Part shown: piece by piece, positions 1,503-19,341 of the stretch
Layout of the letters: each line of letters starts with the position of its first letter
Position numbering within the stretch: position 1 is the first letter of the stretch
Origin: Acanthamoeba castellanii str. Neff
Lineage: Eukaryota > Discosea > Longamoebia > Acanthamoebidae
NCBI RefSeq assembly: GCF_000313135.1
Contig: NW_004457538.1
Span: 6,312-25,652, forward strand
Length of the DNA: 19,341 bases
Direction of reading: 5' to 3'
Made by a program: the position numbers and the translations under genes
Notes under the pieces: model-generated
What the model was told of the DNA's origin: nothing
Database searches by the model: none
The model's input: only the letters and a program-made list of their open reading frames with translations

Positions 1503-3819
1503 CTACAACACCGGCGGGATCTGATAGTAGGACAGCAGCCCGTTTCTGATGGTCAAGAGGCGGTGGGTGAGTGGAGGGAGTGGAACTGGAAACAAAGGTG
1601 ACGGGCTTGTCGTACGAATCGGTAACGGCCAGGGCCGAGCTGTGCGAGAGAAACTCGCCCGAGGTCTTGTAGGACATGTTGTTTGGCAGCTGCGGCGGAC
1701 ACATGTTGTTGTGGCCCCTGCACAAGGTGTGGGTTACAGCCGAGTCACAAGAGCTGCGTTTGCTCGATAGAAGAGGCGCAGTGAGGCCGTACCAGACTTG
1801 AAAGCTGCGTGACTCTCCCACTTTCCAAAGCGTGACCTCGGGCACGCCAAACGTGGCGAACACGCCGCCACCGTCCACCTTGATCTCGCCGATCTGGCGC
1901 TGGTAGGGATCCTGCACAGCGGGCGACATGTCTTTAGCATCTTCGATCAGCAGCGCAAGCCACACGCGTAGCTCACCATACCTGGAATACTTGGGTGGTT
2001 CGCTGCATGCGCGTGTCGAAGGTGTGGATCTGCCCGTCACCTAAGGTCGGGGAGAGGGGGCGTAAGCATGATGTGCGTGTCGTGCATGTCGTGCGGCTGG
2101 GAGGGGGTTTACCGTAGCCGAGGAGGATGGTGTATTCATCGCAATATGCGTGAGTGTAGAGCTCGGGTTTGGTGGTGTTGTAGAGCAGAGACTGGCGCGC
2201 CCGGTCGCTCGCCGCATTCACGCCTCCCGAATCGGTGCGTATGTCGAAGATGTGGAGCGTGCCCGGATCGGTCGTGCACGAGGCCAACCACGGATCTGCA
2301 CACCAAACACAGGTGCCGAGCGGGTGTCAGACTAGAAGAGTCGGGAGACGGATCACATGTGTGGCGGTTTCGGGGGACGTACTGGTCGGGTGCCACCCCA
2401 CACTGCCCACCACTTCGCCGCACGGGTAGATGCTGTTCTCGCTGTGCTGCTGATCGGTGGTGATGTCCTCGCATAATCGACTGATGTCCGTCACTGTGTT
2501 GTGTTACGACAGGTAAATACGAAAGGGTCAGCGTGTCGGCCAAGAAAGAAGTAGCCGAGGTGAGTCGAACCAAACACGGAACCGTCGAAGCCGCCGGAGA
2601 GCAAGAGGTTTCGTTTCGCCGGCGAGACGGCAATCTCCCGTATAAAGTCCTGCAAGGAGAGAGCACAAATGAGGACGAATGAAATGCTGTCTCAGCCATG
2701 GTGCCATGGGCGGAGAGTTGGTGTACCTTGTGAAAAGGAGGAAAGTTGATGGTCGCGAGATCGGCGCGGGTGTGCTGCGGCAGGCGCATGAGAATGAGCG
2801 TGCTGGCGATGGCCACGATCATGAGCTGCTCGTCCACCCATTGTATGTCTCGCACGTGCTGAGATGGTGGCACCGCCACCGCCATGTGTAACATATGAGA
2901 TGGGGCTTTGCTCGTCCACACAAGGGAGGTCTCACGTACATTGCTGATGGGCTGCGTCCAAACGTCCGGCGAGCCGTTCCTTGTCATCAGCTTCCCCGTG
3001 TTGGGATCCATTCTACCGAATATCAGATAGTTGCTCTTTGACCTGCACGCACAGTCCAGGAAAACGATCGTGGTGAGAAGGGCGTCTGATGTGCTCATGT
3101 GGTGGTCGAGAGGCCGCTGAGAGAGCGAATCCTACCGCTGGGGATGCTGTTCTTCGGTGCCGCAGAGGAAGCGGCCGCTGCCGTCTCGCGCAAAGGCTGG
3201 CCGCGACAGAGCGGGAATGATCGGCGCTGCGCGTGTAATCCGCCCATAGAACGAGCACCCAAGTCTTAGAAGACACGGTACACCGACTACGAGCGCACAG
3301 CTTTGGCATCGCGTACCGGATGCCCCGAGGGCGATGTCGAACAGGGGGATCACCTCTCGCGGCCTGAACTGCGCGACGGCTCCACCTCTCGACTCCGCTT
3401 CCACCTCGCCCATCATCATTCCCCCTGCACGCGCCCCACCACGATGAGCTTCGACCACACGAGCACCAGCAGTACATGGGCACCGTACCGACGTTCATGC
3501 GCATCCCGCCGCCCTGGAGCGGCATGTCAAAGTTGGGCATTGGGGTGGAGGGCAGGGGGTAGAGCGGGGCCAGGCTGGGGAGGCCGCCGCCACCACCGCC
3601 CGATGACGAAGACGTACTGCCCCCACCGGTGGGCAGGTGGGCGGGCAGCTGGGCGTGCAGCTGGCTGGCGGCGGCGTCAGAGGTCGAGTAGTAGTCGGGC
3701 TGTGCTGTAGCCGCTGCCCACATCGACTCCATGTCCTCTTGGTGCTGTTGTTGTTGCCGCTGTTGCTGCTCCTGGTGCATGGCCTGCCCTGGTAGGCCAC
3801 TGAACGAGGACCTGTCCAT
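1503..3819 (-). CDS. WD40-repeat protein with Gln-rich N-terminus, function unknown
   Basis: Predicted 486-aa beta-propeller protein. Exons (minus strand): 3819-3489, 3424-3317, 3226-3136, 3042-2940, 2858-2727, 2649-2571, 2493-2383, 2295-2113, 2040-1982, 1911-1793, 1717-1616 and 1545-1503; phase is kept at all 11 junctions. Residues 1-110 are low complexity: a Gln/His run near 17-29, then Gly/Ser and Pro stretches. From about residue 155 come WD-type blades, recognisable by GSGRFLCGTEE, LLLSGGFDGSVFVTD, HIFDIRTD (333-340), HTFDTRMQ (385-392) and VTLWKV (425-430). The stop follows SYYQIPPVL. I do not recognise a specific subfamily; the protein is most likely a scaffold or adaptor. The ATG at 3819 follows a possible splice acceptor (TTTGCAG), so a 5' UTR intron or a further upstream exon is possible. 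The last intron (1615-1546) is inferred from phase and a pyrimidine-rich acceptor. Confidence 0.82.
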
Positions 3820-4380
3820 TCCTGCAAAGAGGAAAGTTGCGTTATCGCTTTGTTGGAGACCTCACGCGTAGAAGACAGAGTTCGACATGCCCCCCCCCCT
3901 TTCACGTTCTCTTTCTACTTCACCGACATGGCAAGTGGAGGTTATTTGGTACTTTGGTTGGAGACTGCGGCACCTGGGACGCGAGCTCTTTGCAAATCCT
4001 CTGCAAATCACTTCTGGTCCTGTTGTTCGCGTGCTTTCTTCTTGTTATTGCCCTTCTTCCTTTCTCCCTTTCAAATGCGACCTCCTCAACCGCGTTCGTG
4101 CCAGGAGAGACGTTTGGGTGCTGGTAGCTATCTGGTGGTCGCCACCTCCAGTGCCCCTCTTGTTCAGCGCGCTCGCCCACGAAAGCCGACGGCTTTTCCA
4201 GTCCTCTCCCGAGCTATGCGCCATTGATGGTCAAAGGAAAAATGCCACAAATTATTCGAGATAACAATGTTAACATTATCAATAACTAATAATAAATTGG
4301 AAAATAAATCAAGAACGAGAAAAAGCTGTCAATAATAAATAGATTTATTAATGTTAGTGCGCAACCACACAATAAAAGGA
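3820..4380. other. Intergenic: 3' UTR of malonyl-CoA decarboxylase and 5' flank of the WD40 gene
   Basis: The stretch of 561 nt separates two minus-strand genes. Positions 4255-4350 are strikingly AT-rich and belong to the 3' UTR of the malonyl-CoA decarboxylase gene. The remainder, nearer the WD40 start, includes a run of Cs near 3890-3898. Short open frames here show no domain-like sequence and I call none of them. Confidence 0.6.
4344..4349 (-). terminator. Poly(A) signal AATAAA of malonyl-CoA decarboxylase
   Basis: AATAAA on the minus strand, about 32 nt past the stop codon at 4381-4383, within an AT-rich block. Further AATAA-like words lie nearby, so the exact site of use is not fixed. 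Confidence 0.65.
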
Positions 4381-6459
4381 CTACCACCGATCGCGCAGGA
4401 GAGCTTCGACGTCGGGCGACGCCTTGATGATGCCCTCCCGGTGGTAGAGCGCAGCGTCGGCGGCGCCGGTGGTCGCGTCGGCCGGGCTGGGGTACTTGTA
4501 GTTGGCCATCAGGCTGGCCGACTCGCTCAGGCGCAGCGGTGCCAGGTCGGCCATCCAGTTGAGTCCGTGCACGTAGGCGCCATTGCCCAGATGGAAGTTG
4601 GCCACCTGCAATGGTTTTTACAATGCAACGCTAAGTACGACCAATAGGCTTGCTCGAGAGTGGTAAGGGCAGGTCACGCACGCGATCGAGGGCTTGGGTG
4701 GACCCATTGACGGCCCTTTCGGTGATGACATAGTGAGCGCACAGGCGCAGCATGAGCGGCTGCAGGGCCCCCACTACGCGCTCGTTCTCGAACCAACGAT
4801 GATTCTCCAGCGCTTCCTGGAGAGAGCAGAGAATGGTGTGGTGTGAGTGCATTCGTTGTTGATGGTGCTGTGAAAAGGCTTCACGCACCACGAGCGCTTC
4901 CTGAGGCGGTACGGAAGAAGAGATGCCAAGCTCCTTTGCCACGACCTCTACCTTGGCTGGCAGCATCGCCTTGAGCCACGCTGTACGCACATGAACGGTC
5001 ACCGTCTCAGTGGTGCAAGGATCCAAACGTGTTGATTACGTACCTTTCCGCTCGGCGAGCGATGGGCTGGAGGGGCTGGGCGAGGAAAGCGAGAGCCGAA
5101 GCCAAGGCATGAAGCCAGGAATAGGCGAGAGAGTGCTGAACTCCGTAAGGCCTGACGGGCCACGAACAGGGACAATCAGCTGCCTCACCAGTCCGGCACC
5201 AACCCTATCTCGGACTTGGCCGCACCTTTGTACTGTTGGTGGAGGTAACGCGATGTCCACTTGATGAGCTGGTGCGGCAGATCGACACCCTTGAGACCTA
5301 CGAACACATGAAAGTGGTAAAGTTAGAAAAGCTGAGGCTTCGAGTCGGGTCGATCCGCGCTAGTGTCCGTACCGGGTTGAGTCGTCACAATCGAATAGAA
5401 GATGGCCGCTTTCGCTTCTTCGGGGTCCAGCCTCTGAGCTTCATCGAGGTAGATCTCCTGTTCACCCGAACAGAAGAAGCGTCTATTGAGGTGAAAATCA
5501 TGATGATCTACACACCGAATCGTGTTCCAGTGCGTACCTTCATGGAGGTGGCAATCCTGGGCTCGAACGCGACGTTGATGTAAACGAGCGGTTCCTGGAC
5601 GAGGATGCGCATTGTCCGTCAGGAATTCTCTCAACGGTGCCTTGCGGTGCAGGGAATTGACAGAGGCAGCACCTCGGGGAGCAGTGGATGGAAGAAGGCC
5701 CAGCACTTTCTGCCTTTGCCCAGCCGGGCTTTGAAGGCGTCGACTGAGGCCAACGGGTGGACGGACTCGGTGTCGACCACCTGCGAAAGAGTGTTGAGCG
5801 TTTCTCTTGGCGATCACACGTGTGACGTGCGGGAGACGCACCTTCTGGAGCACAGTGAGTGGTGAGGTGCGTTCGATTTGCGTCAGGAGGAGCGAATGCG
5901 GATCGAAGCGCTCGCTCAGCACATCCTTCAGTCCGTCCGCGATGGCGCGCAGCTCGTTCCTCAAGTGCTGCTCGTTCGGGTCGCGCGCGTGTCTGATCGT
6001 TTGCTGTTTGAACGGAGAAAAAGTGCGTGTCTTCATCAGCGCACTTGGCCACGCGCGGCACACCGTACGCAGGCGCTGTAGGTACCATCAAGGAGGCACG
6101 CAGGGCGACCAAGCCGCGCAGGCGCTCGCTTGGGTCTTTCGTCGCCGCCACGCTCGCCTGAGGCACAATACAGAGAGAAGGCAGCTGATGTGAGCCGCAT
6201 CCTCGCAGGCAAGCCTGTCGCCTGGCCTGGACCAGAAGAAGAAGAAGGGAGGGAGGAGGGAGGAGGGCACCGAAGCGGACGAGAGCCGGGGGTGGGCTGG
6301 AAGCGAGGCGAGCCGGTGCAGCCACGGCGCCTCGTCGGCACCAGTGGCAGCTTGTGAGGAAAAAGCCCGCAAACAAGGCGCGAGCAAGCGCGAGCCCCCT
6401 CGCGGCGGCCGAGCCAACCTCAGAGAAGAACGGCAGCCACCCCACGCTCCCCTCCTCAT
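4381..6459 (-). CDS. MLYCD: Malonyl-CoA decarboxylase, probably mitochondrial
   Basis: Converts malonyl-CoA to acetyl-CoA and CO2, and so controls malonyl-CoA, the precursor of fatty acid synthesis and inhibitor of mitochondrial fatty acid import. Exons (minus strand): 6459-6271, 6157-6086, 6003-5842, 5780-5673, 5594-5538, 5457-5373, 5297-5226, 5151-5044, 4980-4889, 4816-4682 and 4605-4381; 434 aa. Family landmarks: EPLVYINVAF (178-187), AAIFYSIVTTQPG, TLSPIPGF (255-262), LMLRLCAHY, VANFHLGNGA (361-370), NWMADLAP and a C-terminal IIKAS. Ser257 of SPIPGF and His365 of ANFHL match the family's Ser-His catalytic pair. Residues 1-40 are Arg/Ser/Ala-rich (RLLAPCLRAFSSQA), a good matrix presequence. 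The C-terminus is DRW, so no peroxisomal SKL-type signal. The helical N-terminal domain looks shorter than in animals; the junction of exons 1 and 2 is the weakest part of the model. Identity is very sure. Confidence 0.95.
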
Positions 6460-13500: not shown

Positions 13501-15900
13501 TGTGTGTTGTGTGCGGTTGTGTGCGGTGTGACTCAAAAATGTGAGTGCAGCACGAGGACATTGCGACGGGCGAGGAGCTGGCGCGACGAGCGTCGATGGC
13601 GATTGACAACGCGCGCCTGTATCATGAGGCCGAGAGGGCGAACCACGCCAAGGACCACTTCCTCGCGGCCCTCTCCCACGAACTCCGCACACCGCTCACG
13701 CCCGCGCTCCTGCTTTCCGAGTCCCTCCTCGGTCCGTACCGCGCCACCTTAACCATCAAACTCTTTGGGGGCGTTCAATTTACTTTGAAATGCATGGAAT
13801 GCGTGTGCCTATATTTGCGCAGGAGAGGGACTGCCGCCACAGGCCGAAGAGAATGTGCGGATGATCCACGAGTCGGTGGAGCTGGAGGTGCAGCTCATCG
13901 ACGACCTGCTCGACCTCACCAAGATCTCGCGGTACCTCGACACAACACTCGCATTGATGGCTACACTATATTCACGTGTTGTGTGTGTGTGTGTGGTACA
14001 GGAACAAATTGGAGCTACACTTGCAAGAGGTGGTGGCGCACGAGCTGTTGAGTCGCACGCTGCAGATCGTGGGACACGAGATCAAGCTCAAGAAGCTCCA
14101 CGTCTCTACCGACTTCGCCGCCACCATCGACCGACTCAACGCCGATCCCGCACGGTACATCCCCCCCCCGGTGCCCGCCAGACGCATTTCACCTGACCTC
14201 TTCGTGTGCTGTGTGCGGCGTGTGCGGCGACGATGTAGGCTGCAGCAGGTGTTTTGGAACATCACGAAGAACGCGATCAAATTCACGCCGGAGGGCGGCG
14301 CCATCGCGATCCGCACGCGCAACTACGAGGCCGTAGACGACGACGCCGTGCCCTCGGAGAAGGAGAAGAAAAAGAATGAAATGATTCAGGAAATGCGGAA
14401 GCGAATCCAGCCCCACGGCACGTGCGGCGGCGGCGGCGGCGGCGGTAAAGAGAAGGAGGCCAGGGAGGCTAAGGAAGCGAAGCGGCGGCTCATGCTCGCC
14501 GTCGAGATCATGGACACGGGCATCGGCATCGAGGACCACGTCTTGCCGCACCTCTTCCGCGCCTTCGAGCAGGGCGACGCCTCCATCACCGTGCGCTTCG
14601 GCGGCCTCGGCCTCGGCCTCTCCATCTCACGGTACCACACACGACACGACACGACACACGCTGTGATGCTCACCCATGCGTGAATGGGGGGGGGAGCAGA
14701 TCGCTGGTGGAGATGCACCAGGGCACGCTGAGCGCGGCAAGCCAGGGCAAGAACAAGGGCGCCACCTTCACCATCCACCTCCCAGTCGTACGGCCCGCCG
14801 CCTCCTTTCATTCTCTAGCGATTCCTAACCGACTCTGTGTACCGCGCAGTTCAAGGGCGGGGCGCTGCCGTCGCCGACGGGTCGCACTTCGCTGGGCTCG
14901 GCGGAGATCAAGCTGCTCACTCCGTCCTCCTCCTCCTCCTCTTCATCATCGTCTTCGTCGTCGCCGTTGGCTTCGGCTTCGTCGTCACGCGCCTCTTCCC
15001 CAGTGCCGAGTCTCGCCGACGCCGCTGTCGCTGTCGGGCTTGTCTCTGCCTCTAGCGGGGGGAGTGTCGACAACGTCAGCCAACTCAAATCGAGCTATTC
15101 TGTCGACAGCATCAGCAGCGGCGGCGAAAGCAGCGGTTTCTCCCCGCTCTCGTCCTCCTCGTCCCTGCCCACCGTCATCCCGGCCTCCAACTCCTTCTCG
15201 CCGCCCACCTCCCCGCGTGGCGCCGCCGGCTCGCCCGGCCCACCGCCGCCACGCGACCTCAAGGTACACCCAACGCCAGCCCTGGCGACACCCATTCGGC
15301 ATTGCTTGGGCTCACGCAGTGGTGGTGGTGGGCCGACAACAATGGCAGGTGCTGCTGGTCGAGGACAACAAGAGCACGCTGGTGATCATGTCGCGGCTGC
15401 TGCGCCAGAAGCTGAACTACGACGTGGTGGTGGCCTCGAGCGTGGGCGACGCCCTGCGCGCGGCGGACGAGGCCCGGGGCGAGTTCGACCTGGTCATCAG
15501 CGACATCGGCCTGCCCGACGGCACGGGCCTCCAGCTCATGACCACCCTCAAGGCCAAGTACAACCTCAAGGTACCCCCAGTCGTGTCGTGTTGTTGGTCA
15601 TTGATCGTGTCGTGGTGCATGTTGCGTGTTGCGTCGTGTGCGGTGATGCGTGTGCGGTGATGTGTGTGCGGTGTGTGCTCACGACATGTGGTGCGCTTGC
15701 AGGGTATTGCGCTGTCGGGCTACGGCATGGACGAGGACGTGCAGCGGAGCGCCGACGCGGGGTTCGAGCTGCACTTGACCAAGCCAGTGCACTTTGCCTC
15801 CCTCTTGGCGGCCATCCACGCCCTTCATCACCACCAGCCGCCGTCGGCGGGCAACCCTCAGCCTACTGATGACCCTCCCTTCCCATCGGATCACGTGTAA
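6953..15900 (+). CDS. Tandem (double) hybrid sensor histidine kinase, with a frame break in the first receiver domain
   Basis: Soluble multistep phosphorelay kinase, about 1,916 aa if the frame break is discounted; no membrane segment or signal peptide seen. Order by approximate residue: N-terminal helical region 1-200; PAS 206-347 ([25 protein letters not shown]); GAF 348-545; HisKA with SHEFRTP, His566; HATPase with [22 protein letters not shown]; Ser-rich linker 779-935; receiver with LLVDDN, phospho-acceptor Asp989 (LTDVMMP), Lys1041 (IKPF); PAS 1082-1190; GAF 1195-1330; second HisKA with SHELRTP, His1374; second HATPase with [23 protein letters not shown]; Ser-rich linker 1640-1777; second receiver with LLVEDN, Asp1829 (SDIGLP), TKPV. 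There are 31 exons; key ones: 6953-7120, 7924-8023, 8561-8676, 9825-9920, 10027-10232, 10640-10768, 11062-11552, 11667-11778, 11861-11970, 12263-12606, 13551-13731, 14239-14631, 15349-15570 and 15703-15900. All required phosphorelay residues are present. The domain order resembles bacterial proteins, suggesting ancient transfer followed by intron gain (inference). The stop TAA overlaps an AATAAA. Confidence 0.93.
7121..7272 (+). other. Histidine kinase intron 1
   Basis: GTATGC donor to TTTGCAG acceptor, both in phase 0. It is AT-rich compared with the flanking exons. The next exon boundary, somewhere between 7435 and 7524, is ambiguous: the frame stays open through GTGTGT, GTGAGC and GTATAC donors. 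I used 7524. Confidence 0.7.
7821..7923 (+). repeat. Histidine kinase intron 3 with a (CT)n tract
   Basis: Positions 7899-7921 are an uninterrupted CT dinucleotide run that abuts the AG acceptor at 7922-7923, so the microsatellite itself serves as the polypyrimidine tract. The following exon restores the start of the PAS domain ([10 protein letters not shown]). Confidence 0.8.
9357..9438 (+). repeat. Histidine kinase intron with a short ACACGAC-type repeat
   Basis: Positions 9373-9406 hold a few imperfect copies of the 9-mer CGACACACA, the same family as the array in the DnaJ intron at 784-833 but on the opposite strand relative to its gene. Donor GTACTC and acceptor GTCCAG are in phase. Confidence 0.65.
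9544..9657 (+). other. AT-rich intron in the first GAF region of the histidine kinase
   Basis: Runs from GTACCC to TTTTAG and is strongly AT-rich (ATTTATCT-type runs) within an otherwise GC-rich gene. The splice joins ELDDNYR to IFYNLF in phase, matching the end of the GAF domain. Confidence 0.75.
10458..10639 (+). repeat. Histidine kinase intron with an 11-unit (CTTT) tetranucleotide tract
   Basis: Positions 10463-10507 are a pure CTTT repeat of a little over 11 units directly after the GTACT donor. The acceptor follows a TATATATATAG run at 10629-10639. The intron sits between the N box and the DTGIGIP box of the first ATPase domain. Confidence 0.85.
10769..10894 (+). other. Non-canonical GC-AG intron
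   Basis: The upstream exon ends GGC ATA G and the intron begins GCACGT; the acceptor is CTCACAG. Only this boundary gives the expected phase and rebuilds the ATPase G2 box as [14 protein letters not shown] donors nearby (10772, 10779) give the wrong phase, and reading through meets a stop. Confidence 0.75.
11300..11500 (+). other. Ser-rich low-complexity linker coding region before the first receiver
   Basis: Within exon 11062-11552, long runs of TCG codons encode poly-Ser with scattered Ala and Pro (residues about 845-915). It connects the first ATPase domain to the first receiver domain. The antisense and +1 frames are also open and give Asp- and Arg-rich shadows, which are not genes. Confidence 0.8.
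11946..11950 (+). other. One-base frame break (T5 run) in the first receiver domain
   Basis: Upstream the frame reads [12 protein letters not shown]. From here the conserved helix continues only in the next frame, as GLLKELR, and the following exon also needs that frame. One T too many in the run GGTTTTTGG explains it. This is the only junction in the window where phase is not conserved. It may be a sequencing or assembly error or a real lesion. Confidence 0.8.
11971..12262 (+). repeat. Histidine kinase intron filled by a 38-unit heptamer minisatellite
   Basis: The array occupies 11975-12246: 27 copies of GACACAC (11975-12163), then a block of 8 copies of GACCCAC (12164-12219), then 3 more GACACAC and a partial copy. 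Donor GTACGA and acceptor GATAG bracket it. The intron is 292 nt, by far the longest in the gene, and the repeats produce spurious open frames on both strands. Confidence 0.93.
12607..12690 (+). repeat. Histidine kinase intron with a 9-mer tandem repeat
   Basis: Five exact copies of GTGCGTGTC lie at 12611-12655, starting three nt after the donor. The splice joins KKE to DMVGHNVW in the second PAS domain, in phase 1. Confidence 0.85.
13423..13550 (+). repeat. Histidine kinase intron with degenerate GTGTCGTGTGCGG repeats
   Basis: Between donor GTACCT and acceptor GTGCAG, positions 13437-13530 are imperfect repeats of GTGTGCGGTT and CGTGTGTCG. The intron separates the second GAF domain from the exon that carries the second HisKA box. 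Confidence 0.75.
14340..14490 (+). other. Charged and poly-Gly insertion inside the second ATPase domain
   Basis: Coding segment in exon 14239-14631. Between the N box and the DTGIGI box it encodes Asp-, Lys- and Glu-rich sequence with a run of seven Gly (GGC codons near 14423-14446). The insert of roughly 45 residues is far longer than the usual loop and is probably disordered. Confidence 0.75.
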
Positions 15901-16174: not shown

Positions 16175-19100
16175 ATGCTGGAGCGCCTTTCCTTGACCAA
16201 CAATGCCGCCAAGTTCCCTCAGAAATGGTAGGCCATCATCAGCATCTTTGCATGGTGGTTGCTGCTGCGAGTAAAAAAAAATATGGCTTGTGCGATTCAT
16301 CATTTATTGTCTTGTGTAGAATGCCATGGGCAAGGCAGATGAGCTTTTCATCGTGTTTTTTAATAGGATTAATCTTTATTTCTGGGGGCCAGCTCGATTC
16401 AGCTGAAGCTGGCCATCAATCGTATGCGATTGCACCGCACGAAGAAGCTCGAGGAGGGAAACCGCCACAAAAAGCAGATCGCCGACCTCCTGGCCACCGA
16501 CAAGGAACAGCTGGCACGCGTCAAGGTCCCTCCCTCCCACCCGCATGCCCCTTGGTCGCAACCGCGCTTGACTGTGTGTTGTTGTTGTCGTTGCGCTGAT
16601 GATGATGATGGATGGTGGTGATGGATGATGGCACTGGTGGCGGCACGTGTGTGTGTGCAGACGGTGTCGGTCATTTTCGAGGACTACATGATCGAGGCGC
16701 TCAACATGGTGGAGGTCTACTGCGAGACCATCGTCTCCCGCGCGCAGCTTCTCTCTGCACAGAAGTAAGAGACACTCGTGTTCTGTGCCGTGCGTGTCGT
16801 GCGCGCGCTCGTGCGTCGTGGCGAGATCAAACTGACGTGGTCGCAACGCGTGCGTGTGTGCGTGCGTGCGTGTGTGCGTGTGCGTGTGTAGGACGTGTCC
16901 TCTTGAGCTGAAGGATGCCGTCTGCAACATTATCTACTGCGCGCCCTATCTGGCCATGGAGGAACTGACCAAGGTTGGTTTATATTTATTTATTTATTCA
17001 ATTATTTATTGAATTTGCATAAATAAATAAATAAATATAAATAAATAAATGAAATAATGCTAATTGCTGTTTTTCGCTGCAGTTGCGTAAGGCGTTCATC
17101 AAGCGCTACGGGAAGGACTTTCCGATGGACTGTGAGCGCAACGGGTACCTCAACGAGAAGCTCATCTCGCGGCTGCAGCACAACCCGCCCGACGAGGCCC
17201 TCATCAACTACTACCTCTCCGCCATCGCCAAGAAGCACAACATCGACTGGGAAGTCCCTGTACGTTCTTTTCCTCCCCCGCTTCCCCCTTCACTCTTTTT
17301 ACTCTTCGTTTTCGCTCTTCGCGCTCTTCGTTCTTTTGTTTCCTGATGTATGTCGTTGGTCGCGCGTGTGTCGTGTCGTGTCGTGTCGTGTCGTGTCGTG
17401 TCGTGTCTGCAGGTGGGAATGCTCCCGACGTCGATTCTCACGCCACAGCCGGGCGCGCAGCAGCCGCAGTTCCCGACCTACGGCTACCCGCCCATGTCCG
17501 GCCAGCCGGGCGCACAGGGGCCGCCGCCCACCTCGCCGCCCCAGCCCCACCACGCCCCGCCCTCCGCCGTCTACTACCCCGCGCCCGGCCAGTTCCCCGC
17601 GTCCCCATCTTCGCCCACCTTCCCTCCCGCCCACTTCACTCAAGGTGCCCCCGACCCCCCGCGCGCGTGTCGTGTGCGGTGCGTGCGGCAACTAAATGTT
17701 TCTTGTGTGTGTGTGTGTGTGTATGTATGTGTGTGTGTGTGTGTGTGTGTGTGAGACAGGTGGAATGCAGCAGGGCGGCATGTCGCAGGGGACCAGCGCC
17801 ATTCCGAGCGCGGACTCGGTGGACGACCTCGAGGCCCGCTTCCGCGCGCTGTCGGGCCAGCCGGGCGGCGGCGATGGCGGTGGCGGCGGTAATCTGCAGT
17901 CGCTCCAGCACGGCGCGGTGGTGCAGAACTCGCAGCCCATGCCCGACTTCCTGGACGAGCTCGACTCGATGTGGAAGCAGTCGGCCTCGGCCGCGCGCGC
18001 GGTCGAGCCCGCGCTGGCCCGCGTCGACGCGGCGCTGGCCGAACTCGAGGCCTCGGCCCGGTCCGTCGGCGCCGGCAAGCTGCTCGCCCGCAGCGCCGTG
18101 CCGCCGACCAACGGTAACGACCCACCCCCGGCCTCTAACCTTCACGCACGACCCGACACGACCAACGACACGCCACTCGCACACAATAACGCGTGTGTTG
18201 TGTCGTGTCATGTGTGTCGTGTGCGATGATAGATGAGGCGGCGGCAGCGCTGGCGGCGGCAGTGGAAGCGCTGCGGCAGGCGACGTCCGGGCTGTCGTCG
18301 GAGGCGGCCAACGGACGGCCGATCGGCGACAAGGCCCTGACGCTCGCGCAGGCCCTCGCGCGCCTGTCCGACCTCTCCGTCGAAGCCGCCGCTCAGCTCG
18401 CCAGCGTCGATGCCCAGGTGCTCCCCACCCCCACCCGCCCCCATCGCCTCGCGCCTTGCTTCGCTCACGTGTGCGGTCGTGCATGTGCGGCCATGTGTGC
18501 GTGTGCGGCTGTTAGGCGTCGGCACTGCGTGCGGTCCGCGCGTCGCTGGAGTCGGGCCGCGTGCTACTGGCCGCGGCCGAGGCCACCGGGGCGTCGCCCC
18601 ACGACCCCTCCCTGCGCGACCGGCTGGGCCAGGCCTCGGCCGGCGTCGCCGCCGCAGTCAAGTCCCTCTTCGCCATCCACCAGCAGGCCCGGCAGCAGCA
18701 GCAGCAACCCGCCCCGCAACCCTCCGCCTCCTCCTCATCATCCGGTACACCGCACACGCACAACCACACCGCACCCACCGCACACAACTCATTGCGCGTG
18801 TGCGTGCGGTTTCAGCGGACGAGGCGGCGCGTGCGGAGATCATGAAGGCGGCGCAGGCGCTGATCGCGGCGGCCACGCAGCTGCACGAGACCTCCACGGG
18901 CGCCGCGCCGCGCAAGCCGCCTGCGGGTCCGAAGACCGGCGGGTGGGAGGACCTGGCCTACGATCTGGGCGGCCTCCCGCCGGGTCTCATCCCGCCGGCC
19001 CAGCACATCGCCGGCGCCGCGGGCGCGCTGCTGGCCGCCGCGGCCGAGTGCCAGGCCGAGCGGGTGCAGGCCATGTCAACAGGGCCGCACTACCACGCTG

Positions 19101-19341
19101 ACCCGGCCTGGACGAACGGCCTCGTCTCGGCCAGCCGCGCCGTCACCTCCACCACCTTCCATGCCCTCAGGTACGGCACGACACGACACACACACCGCAC
19201 ACACCGCACACGGACCACCGCATATGCGGCTGACGTGATCGCGCGCGGGTGGTAGATTGGCGGTGGCGGTGGGCAAGGGCGAGGCGGACCTGCCCACGCT
19301 GCAGGCGGCGCTCCGCGCAGAGTCAGCTGCCAGTGCCCAGC
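16175..19341 (+). CDS. IST1 (ESCRT-III) domain fused to an I/LWEQ (THATCH) actin-binding domain, 3' end outside window
   Basis: Predicted link between endosomal ESCRT-III and F-actin. Exons: 16175-16227, 16393-16525, 16661-16764, 16892-16973, 17083-17259, 17413-17644, 17760-18113, 18233-18417, 18516-18744, 18816-19170 and 19256-19341; all junctions in phase, 663 residues so far. Residues 18-183 are the IST1 core: QLKLAINRMRL, IFEDYMIEALNMVEVYCE, IIYCAPYLAMEELTKLRK, ALINYYLSAIAKKHNIDWE. A Pro/Gln/Gly linker (about 184-275) follows, then SVDDLEARFRAL (280-291), matching the MIM1 motif by which IST1 binds the Vps4 MIT domain. Residues 310-515 are Ala-rich predicted helices. From about 517 two I/LWEQ-like segments appear (AEIMKAAQALIAAATQL; AAAAECQAERVQ), then DPAWTNGLVSASRAV (612-626), close to the HIP1R/Sla2 signature RWTEGLISASKAV. 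No stop or poly(A) signal separates the halves. A fusion of neighbouring genes by my splicing is possible but unlikely. Confidence 0.88.
16228..16392 (+). other. Intron 1 of the IST1-I/LWEQ gene
   Basis: Donor GTAGGC follows 17 codons; acceptor GGCCAG at 16387-16392 leads into SIQLKLAINR in phase. The poly-A run at 16274-16281 and AT-rich middle are typical of intron. A second AG at 16402 is possible and would drop a few residues. Confidence 0.65.
16974..17082 (+). repeat. AT-rich intron with a perfect 20-bp inverted repeat
   Basis: Left arm 16979-16998 (TTTATATTTATTTATTTATT) and right arm 17022-17041 are perfect reverse complements around a 23-nt loop. Donor GTTGGT and acceptor CTGCAG join EELTK to LRKAF in phase. 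Confidence 0.85.
17260..17412 (+). repeat. Intron of the IST1-I/LWEQ gene with a pentamer repeat
   Basis: Eight copies of GTGTC at 17368-17407 end directly at the TGCAG acceptor. The upstream half is pyrimidine-rich. The splice joins the end of the IST1 core (DWEVP) to the Pro-rich linker. Confidence 0.85.
17645..17759 (+). repeat. Intron of the IST1-I/LWEQ gene with a (GT)n tract
   Basis: A GT dinucleotide run at 17705-17752, interrupted by GTATGTATGT, precedes the GAGACAG acceptor. The following exon encodes the MIM1-like motif. Confidence 0.8.

Follow-up and report, generated by a model that had tools for sequence, protein, structure and literature searches.

What protein does ACA1_197490 encode, and can a subunit of the endosomal sorting complex required for transport III (ESCRT-III) be built into one chain with an actin-binding tail? 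The gene, publicly annotated in Acanthamoeba castellanii as an 'uncharacterized protein' (P0001, 688 residues), closes the stretch of DNA analysed here (the window, 19,341 nucleotides). An earlier note on this DNA had proposed that one continuous, phase-consistent gene carries a complete N-terminal IST1 core and a C-terminal I/LWEQ segment of HIP1R/talin type.

An IST1 core followed by a talin-type tail

The spliced model comprises 11 exons and 10 GT-AG introns (16175-19341) in a single open frame of 663 complete codons, and it agrees with the annotated P0001 (100% identity, 100% of the model covered), which bears out the proposed continuity. Model and annotation are identical to residue 660; by eye, they diverge from residue 661, beside the run of N in the assembly with which the window ends. 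The Pfam Ist1 family (PF03398) matches residues 21-179 with 151.7 bits (cut-off 33.6; E 2.3e-44), confirming a complete N-terminal core; the core also has the ESCRT-III helical fold. A Pro/Gln-rich linker follows, and in a relative's predicted model residues 180-286 have a predicted local distance difference test score (pLDDT) below 50. Beyond it, Pfam Talin_IBS2B matches residues 383-494 of the window model (29.4 bits, cut-off 27; E 8.3e-7), and TLN1-like_RS gives a sub-cut-off match at 351-501 (16.1 bits). The best I_LWEQ stretch, residues 609-663, reaches 21.5 bits, below the cut-off of 27.5, because the profile match (positions 1-55 of 151) is cut by the window end. Of the talin tail the window itself thus holds only the R11-like bundle and the first part of I/LWEQ, and the I/LWEQ assignment that the note made from 18816 onward, plus downstream sequence, is borne out through relatives of the protein, the domain being complete in all four. 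The tail start given there, 18816, corresponds to about the beginning of exon 10 and of the R13-like bundle enclosing I_LWEQ; Pfam I_LWEQ proper begins later, at 19091, and talin homology seems to begin earlier, in exon 7 at about 18029, its first part resting on the sub-cut-off Pfam match and on alignment with relatives.

The end of P0001 can be accounted for by the same run of N. Alignment with relatives indicates that its residues 661-688 (about the last 27) follow a jump over the middle of I/LWEQ and, judged by eye, the GT chosen for the annotated splice lies immediately ahead of the run. The I/LWEQ of P0001 scores as truncated because the annotation appears to splice over the run, skipping the middle of the domain, and we therefore treat the annotated C-terminus as an artefact. 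A search for the last exon in the next available stretches gave no convincing match (best E 0.035).

Which known tail this is was decided on alignment scores in P0003, a relative in which the tail is complete. Its residues 343-893 align with talin-1 1976-2531, and talin-1 (6r9t) matches the entire tail with 102.3 bits, compared to 59.3 for Sla2 and 54.8 for HIP12. Both P0003 and P0009 carry a colinear C-terminal talin rod, I/LWEQ and terminal helix over the whole tail, in the order found in talin (R11-like bundle, R12 where present, R13 containing I/LWEQ, then the terminal helix); the numbering of the talin domains follows common usage or the titles of Protein Data Bank (PDB) entries. Of the proposed HIP1R/talin type, the talin half therefore stands and the HIP1R half was set aside. 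HIP1R and Sla2 share the C-terminal I/LWEQ (THATCH) domain but score below talin, and no Pfam match to ANTH was found in the window model, P0001-P0004 or P0009. Talin shares the rod, I/LWEQ and helix, whereas in the fusion IST1 stands in place of the head and most of the rod; the same six sequences have no Pfam match to FERM, nor to filamin repeats and an actin domain.

Talin is expressed by some Acanthamoeba, according to an excerpt of PMC12686525. In the same genome, Talin_IBS2B matches lie on 3 other contigs (4 places), while Talin_middle gave no match, which is no evidence of absence because its control also matched nowhere. Neither the Talin_IBS2B nor the I_LWEQ search detected the window's own gene, so exon-by-exon profile searches of this kind miss things. 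The I_LWEQ search gave at least 2 matches at one place (L012; G000 C79, about 3297-5715). There the domain is preceded by a PH-like domain, weak and under its cut-off, and by a Gln-rich stretch, so that the locus possibly encodes a PH-I/LWEQ protein, another unusual architecture.

Related fusions and the link to filactin

Three non-exhaustive protein searches yielded 13 distinct proteins; two of them scored only candidates sharing most words, and one did not return P0001 and P0002, rows of its own query. Ten proteins were scanned with Pfam, and P0007, P0012 and P0013 are described from precomputed Pfam columns. IST1, talin-type sequence and I/LWEQ occur in one chain in 5 of the 13 (P0001, P0002, P0003, P0004 and P0009), so that the search for the same fusion elsewhere, suggested in the note, returned four further cases, one of them from Stereomyxa (P0009, MMETSP0439). 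P0002 (705 residues, from jgi) is 62% identical to the window protein over 98%. P0003 and P0004 bear Trinity transcript names, and with P0009 make three transcriptome-style entries (P0003-P0005 come from eukprot). I_LWEQ is complete in P0002 (E 3.9e-30, 105.4 bits) and in the other three relatives (E 2.6e-39, 2.9e-35 and 1.1e-39). In P0009 the beginning of IST1 is missing (profile from 60). Another five proteins (P0005, P0008, P0010, P0011 and P0012) join IST1 to filamin repeats and actin, the actin being partial in P0005 (profile from 149). In P0006 and P0007 (from jgi and others) IST1 is followed by several cold-shock/OB repeats and a whole actin, a third actin-linked design, and P0013 is a plant IST1. 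Since related proteins share it, the fusion does not seem to be an error of annotation, and the combined sequence evidence supports reading ACA1_197490 as one gene that encodes an IST1-talin-tail chimera.

The filamin-type proteins lead to filactin, a published IST1-like/actin-like hybrid of Dictyostelium (PMC8932920) also found in Physarum (PMC4758236) and contained in nuclear actin rods (PMC5225641), as given in excerpts of these papers. P0010, from D. discoideum, contains SIPHAIKRIDIGG, the segment printed for filactin in an excerpt of PMC2441452. Identity of the fusion IST1 to its P0010 counterpart is 48% (175 aligned positions), against 33% to human IST1 (165 positions) and 28% to Acanthamoeba's ordinary IST1, which lies at another locus. 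A 15-row tree placed all 12 actin-linked IST1s together on one side of a split (support 96/97); leaving out one at a time of the three ordinary IST1 rows, all of them long branches, gave 85/90, 62/82 and 92/93. The five fusions group together weakly (62/81). A constraint joining Acanthamoeba's ordinary IST1 with P0001 and P0002 was rejected (approximately unbiased test, p = 0.0117), with long branches in play. These results suggest, with support that varies with sampling, that the fusion IST1 groups with that of filactin and apart from Acanthamoeba's ordinary IST1.

The likeness extends into the linker. We built a motif matrix from five filactin-type proteins alone and applied it to the fusions with 2000 shuffles each; it selects D-E-[LV]-D-x-[LM]-W where the talin part begins in every one of the five, with 0/2000 shuffles scoring as high in each case. 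P0006 (417/2000), P0007 (137/2000) and the plant IST1 P0013 (556/2000) did not stand out, and a regular-expression match in P0006/P0007 was discarded, since it falls inside their actin domain. Because a matrix derived from filactin finds the motif in all five fusions, the two probably share ancestry in the linker as well. Filactin and the fusion have in common an N-terminal IST1 of one subfamily, a linker with a D-E-x-D-x-LW-type motif and an actin-related module behind it, but the filactin types have filamin repeats and an actin domain where the fusion has a MIM1-like motif and a talin tail. This short motif, at 17954-17974 in the window and in the linkers of P0002-P0005 and P0008-P0012, bears a loose likeness to a stretch inside actin.

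To human IST1 (KIAA0174) and yeast Ist1 the fusion is related by its complete core and, putatively, by a MIM1-like motif (MIM, MIT-interacting motif) after a Pro-rich linker; ordinary IST1 stops at its MIMs, whereas the fusion continues for at least 370 residues. All five fusions carry a D-[DEA]-L-x-x-R-[LF]-x-[AE]-L helix after the Pro-rich linker, and the ordinary Acanthamoeba IST1 (351 residues, an eight-exon model made here) ends with the same motif. Against the PDB, that ordinary tail matches human IST1 peptides best (4wzx with 7s7j, and 4u7e, E 0.028). The sole PDB match of the Stereomyxa motif is weak, a yeast DID4 peptide (2v6x, E 1.1), and the A. castellanii fusion peptide gave unrelated weak matches only. 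We take DID4 to be Vps2 and the 2v6x peptide to be its MIM1. The strict textbook MIM1 pattern was found in 0 of the 13 proteins; the looser, IST1-like pattern was written by eye after the strict one came up empty, and its shuffle test is therefore post hoc. Excerpts of the papers concerned identify 7s7j as a SPASTIN MIT-IST1 complex (PMC9477494) and state that the IST1 MIM1 also binds ULK3 MIT2 (PMC4475061). The IST1 side of the fusion thus appears to retain putative MIT-docking equipment.

In the open-access literature we found no report of an IST1-I/LWEQ or IST1-talin fusion and no mention of ACA1_197490 by name, and the excerpt of PMC10200693, which mentions IST1 and talin, contains no such fusion. 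The statement in the note that no described protein joins the two parts accordingly survives for the talin tail, to the extent that no report was found, while the joining of IST1 to actin itself has a precedent in filactin, a puzzling published protein that hereby gains a wider family.

A possible actin-coupled ESCRT-III subunit

CHMP1B-IST1 coats constrict membrane tubes, and cutting in vitro requires an extra pull and not the coat alone (excerpt of PMC9303997). The IST1 core of the fusion would be expected to join CHMP1/IST1-type ESCRT-III coats on membrane necks, and the MIM1-like helix could give MIT proteins of Vps4 or spastin type a hold on the coat, which they would later dismantle. The talin tail would dimerise and grip filamentous actin (F-actin) under load; by its title, PDB entry 9az6 shows talin R13-DD binding F-actin. 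From the predicted coat-joining core, MIT-docking helix and actin-gripping tail together it would follow that the coat is anchored to moving or contracting actin, providing the pull for friction-driven scission, with tubular endosomes or macropinosomes, the cleavage furrow and nuclear-envelope closure as likely sites. We lean slightly towards this account, in which the chimera ties the coat to actin, transmits pull and can be taken apart by MIT proteins.

That a neighbouring IST1 gene and a talin-like fragment were wrongly joined by annotation is very improbable, and we rejected it. The A. castellanii model was built from genomic sequence, and its introns are short (71-165 bases), introns 8 and 9 being free of in-frame stops so that local retention is possible. 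Against a join, the same fusion recurs in four other proteins, three with transcriptome-style names, and the model built here agrees with the public one. Exon 7 (17760-18113) moreover encodes the MIM1-like motif, DELDSMW and, as the alignment with relatives indicates, the opening helix of the talin bundle, and two genes are disfavoured because the MIM1-like motif and the talin start share this exon.

Two further alternatives accept the chimera and assign it other work. The talin tail could be a scaffold or address tag, for adhesion receptors, other talin partners or dimerisation only, having lost F-actin binding. R12 is kept in P0003, P0004 and P0009 and mostly lost in P0001 and P0002, whose I/LWEQ reads DLPTLQAAL/DIQMLQAAL where P0003 reads EEAVVASA, and the 'IBS2B' in the Pfam name of the talin bundle refers to an integrin-binding site. 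We regard this as rather unlikely, given the complete and strong I/LWEQ of all four relatives and the terminal helix, which by alignment is retained in all five fusions. The chimera might instead do a filactin-like job, closing the nuclear envelope with spastin and CHMP7, with actin merely a secondary partner. The shared IST1 core and linker motif would fit, and filactin and spastin occur together in spindle-associated spots; a role for filactin in envelope closure has been proposed (excerpt of PMC8932920). The MIM1-like motif, by the pattern used, is absent from the five filactin-type proteins and the module after the linker is entirely different, so that this job seems quite unlikely.

These observations are best accommodated by a subfamily of actin-linked IST1 proteins in Amoebozoa whose actin module can be exchanged; in ACA1_197490 the module is a force-bearing talin tail, by which ESCRT-III coats may be pulled. 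A wider and more tentative proposal is that Amoebozoa possess a dedicated actin-coupled ESCRT-III branch, one IST1 lineage swapping modules (actin after filamin repeats, actin after cold-shock/OB repeats, or the force-bearing tail of talin). In such a branch the cutting coat would be permanently tied to F-actin, and scission would draw its power from actin pull, not just from Vps4 or microtubule motors. The means by which ESCRT-III is linked to actin at membrane necks is, as far as we know, an open question. If the pulling account is true, the fusion couples membrane scission directly to the force-generating cytoskeleton and may be a natural 'rope' of the kind that coats need in vitro; with both parts in one chain, the link can be tested with one tagged gene.

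Coordinates and the upstream neighbour

Features of ACA1_197490 within the window (positions in the window)
Feature	Position	Strand	Basis or remark
ACA1_197490, part within window	16175..19341	+	Spliced model, exon phases and introns, P0001 match; 3′ end open
Exons 1-6	16175-16227, 16393-16525, 16661-16764, 16892-16973, 17083-17259, 17413-17644	+	
Exons 7-11	17760-18113, 18233-18417, 18516-18744, 18816-19170, 19256-19341 (3′ open)	+	
IST1 (ESCRT-III) core, residues 21-179	16400..17247	+	Exons 2-5
Pro/Gln-rich linker	17413..17821	+	Exon 6 and start of exon 7; translation
MIM1-like putative MIT-docking motif, residues 282-291	17822..17851	+	Within exon 7
DELDSMW motif, residues 326-332	17954..17974	+	Common to filactin-type proteins
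Talin rod bundle, R11-like by sequence order, residues 351-501	18029..18698	+	Exons 7-9
Start of talin R13 / I/LWEQ F-actin-binding bundle	18816..19341	+	Exons 10-11, ends with window; Pfam I_LWEQ from 19091

Upstream on the same strand, at about 13958-15900, lies a gene that resembles a hybrid histidine kinase, with matches to HATPase and receiver pieces. Its last open frame stops at 15900, about 275 bases 5′ of the IST1 start codon.
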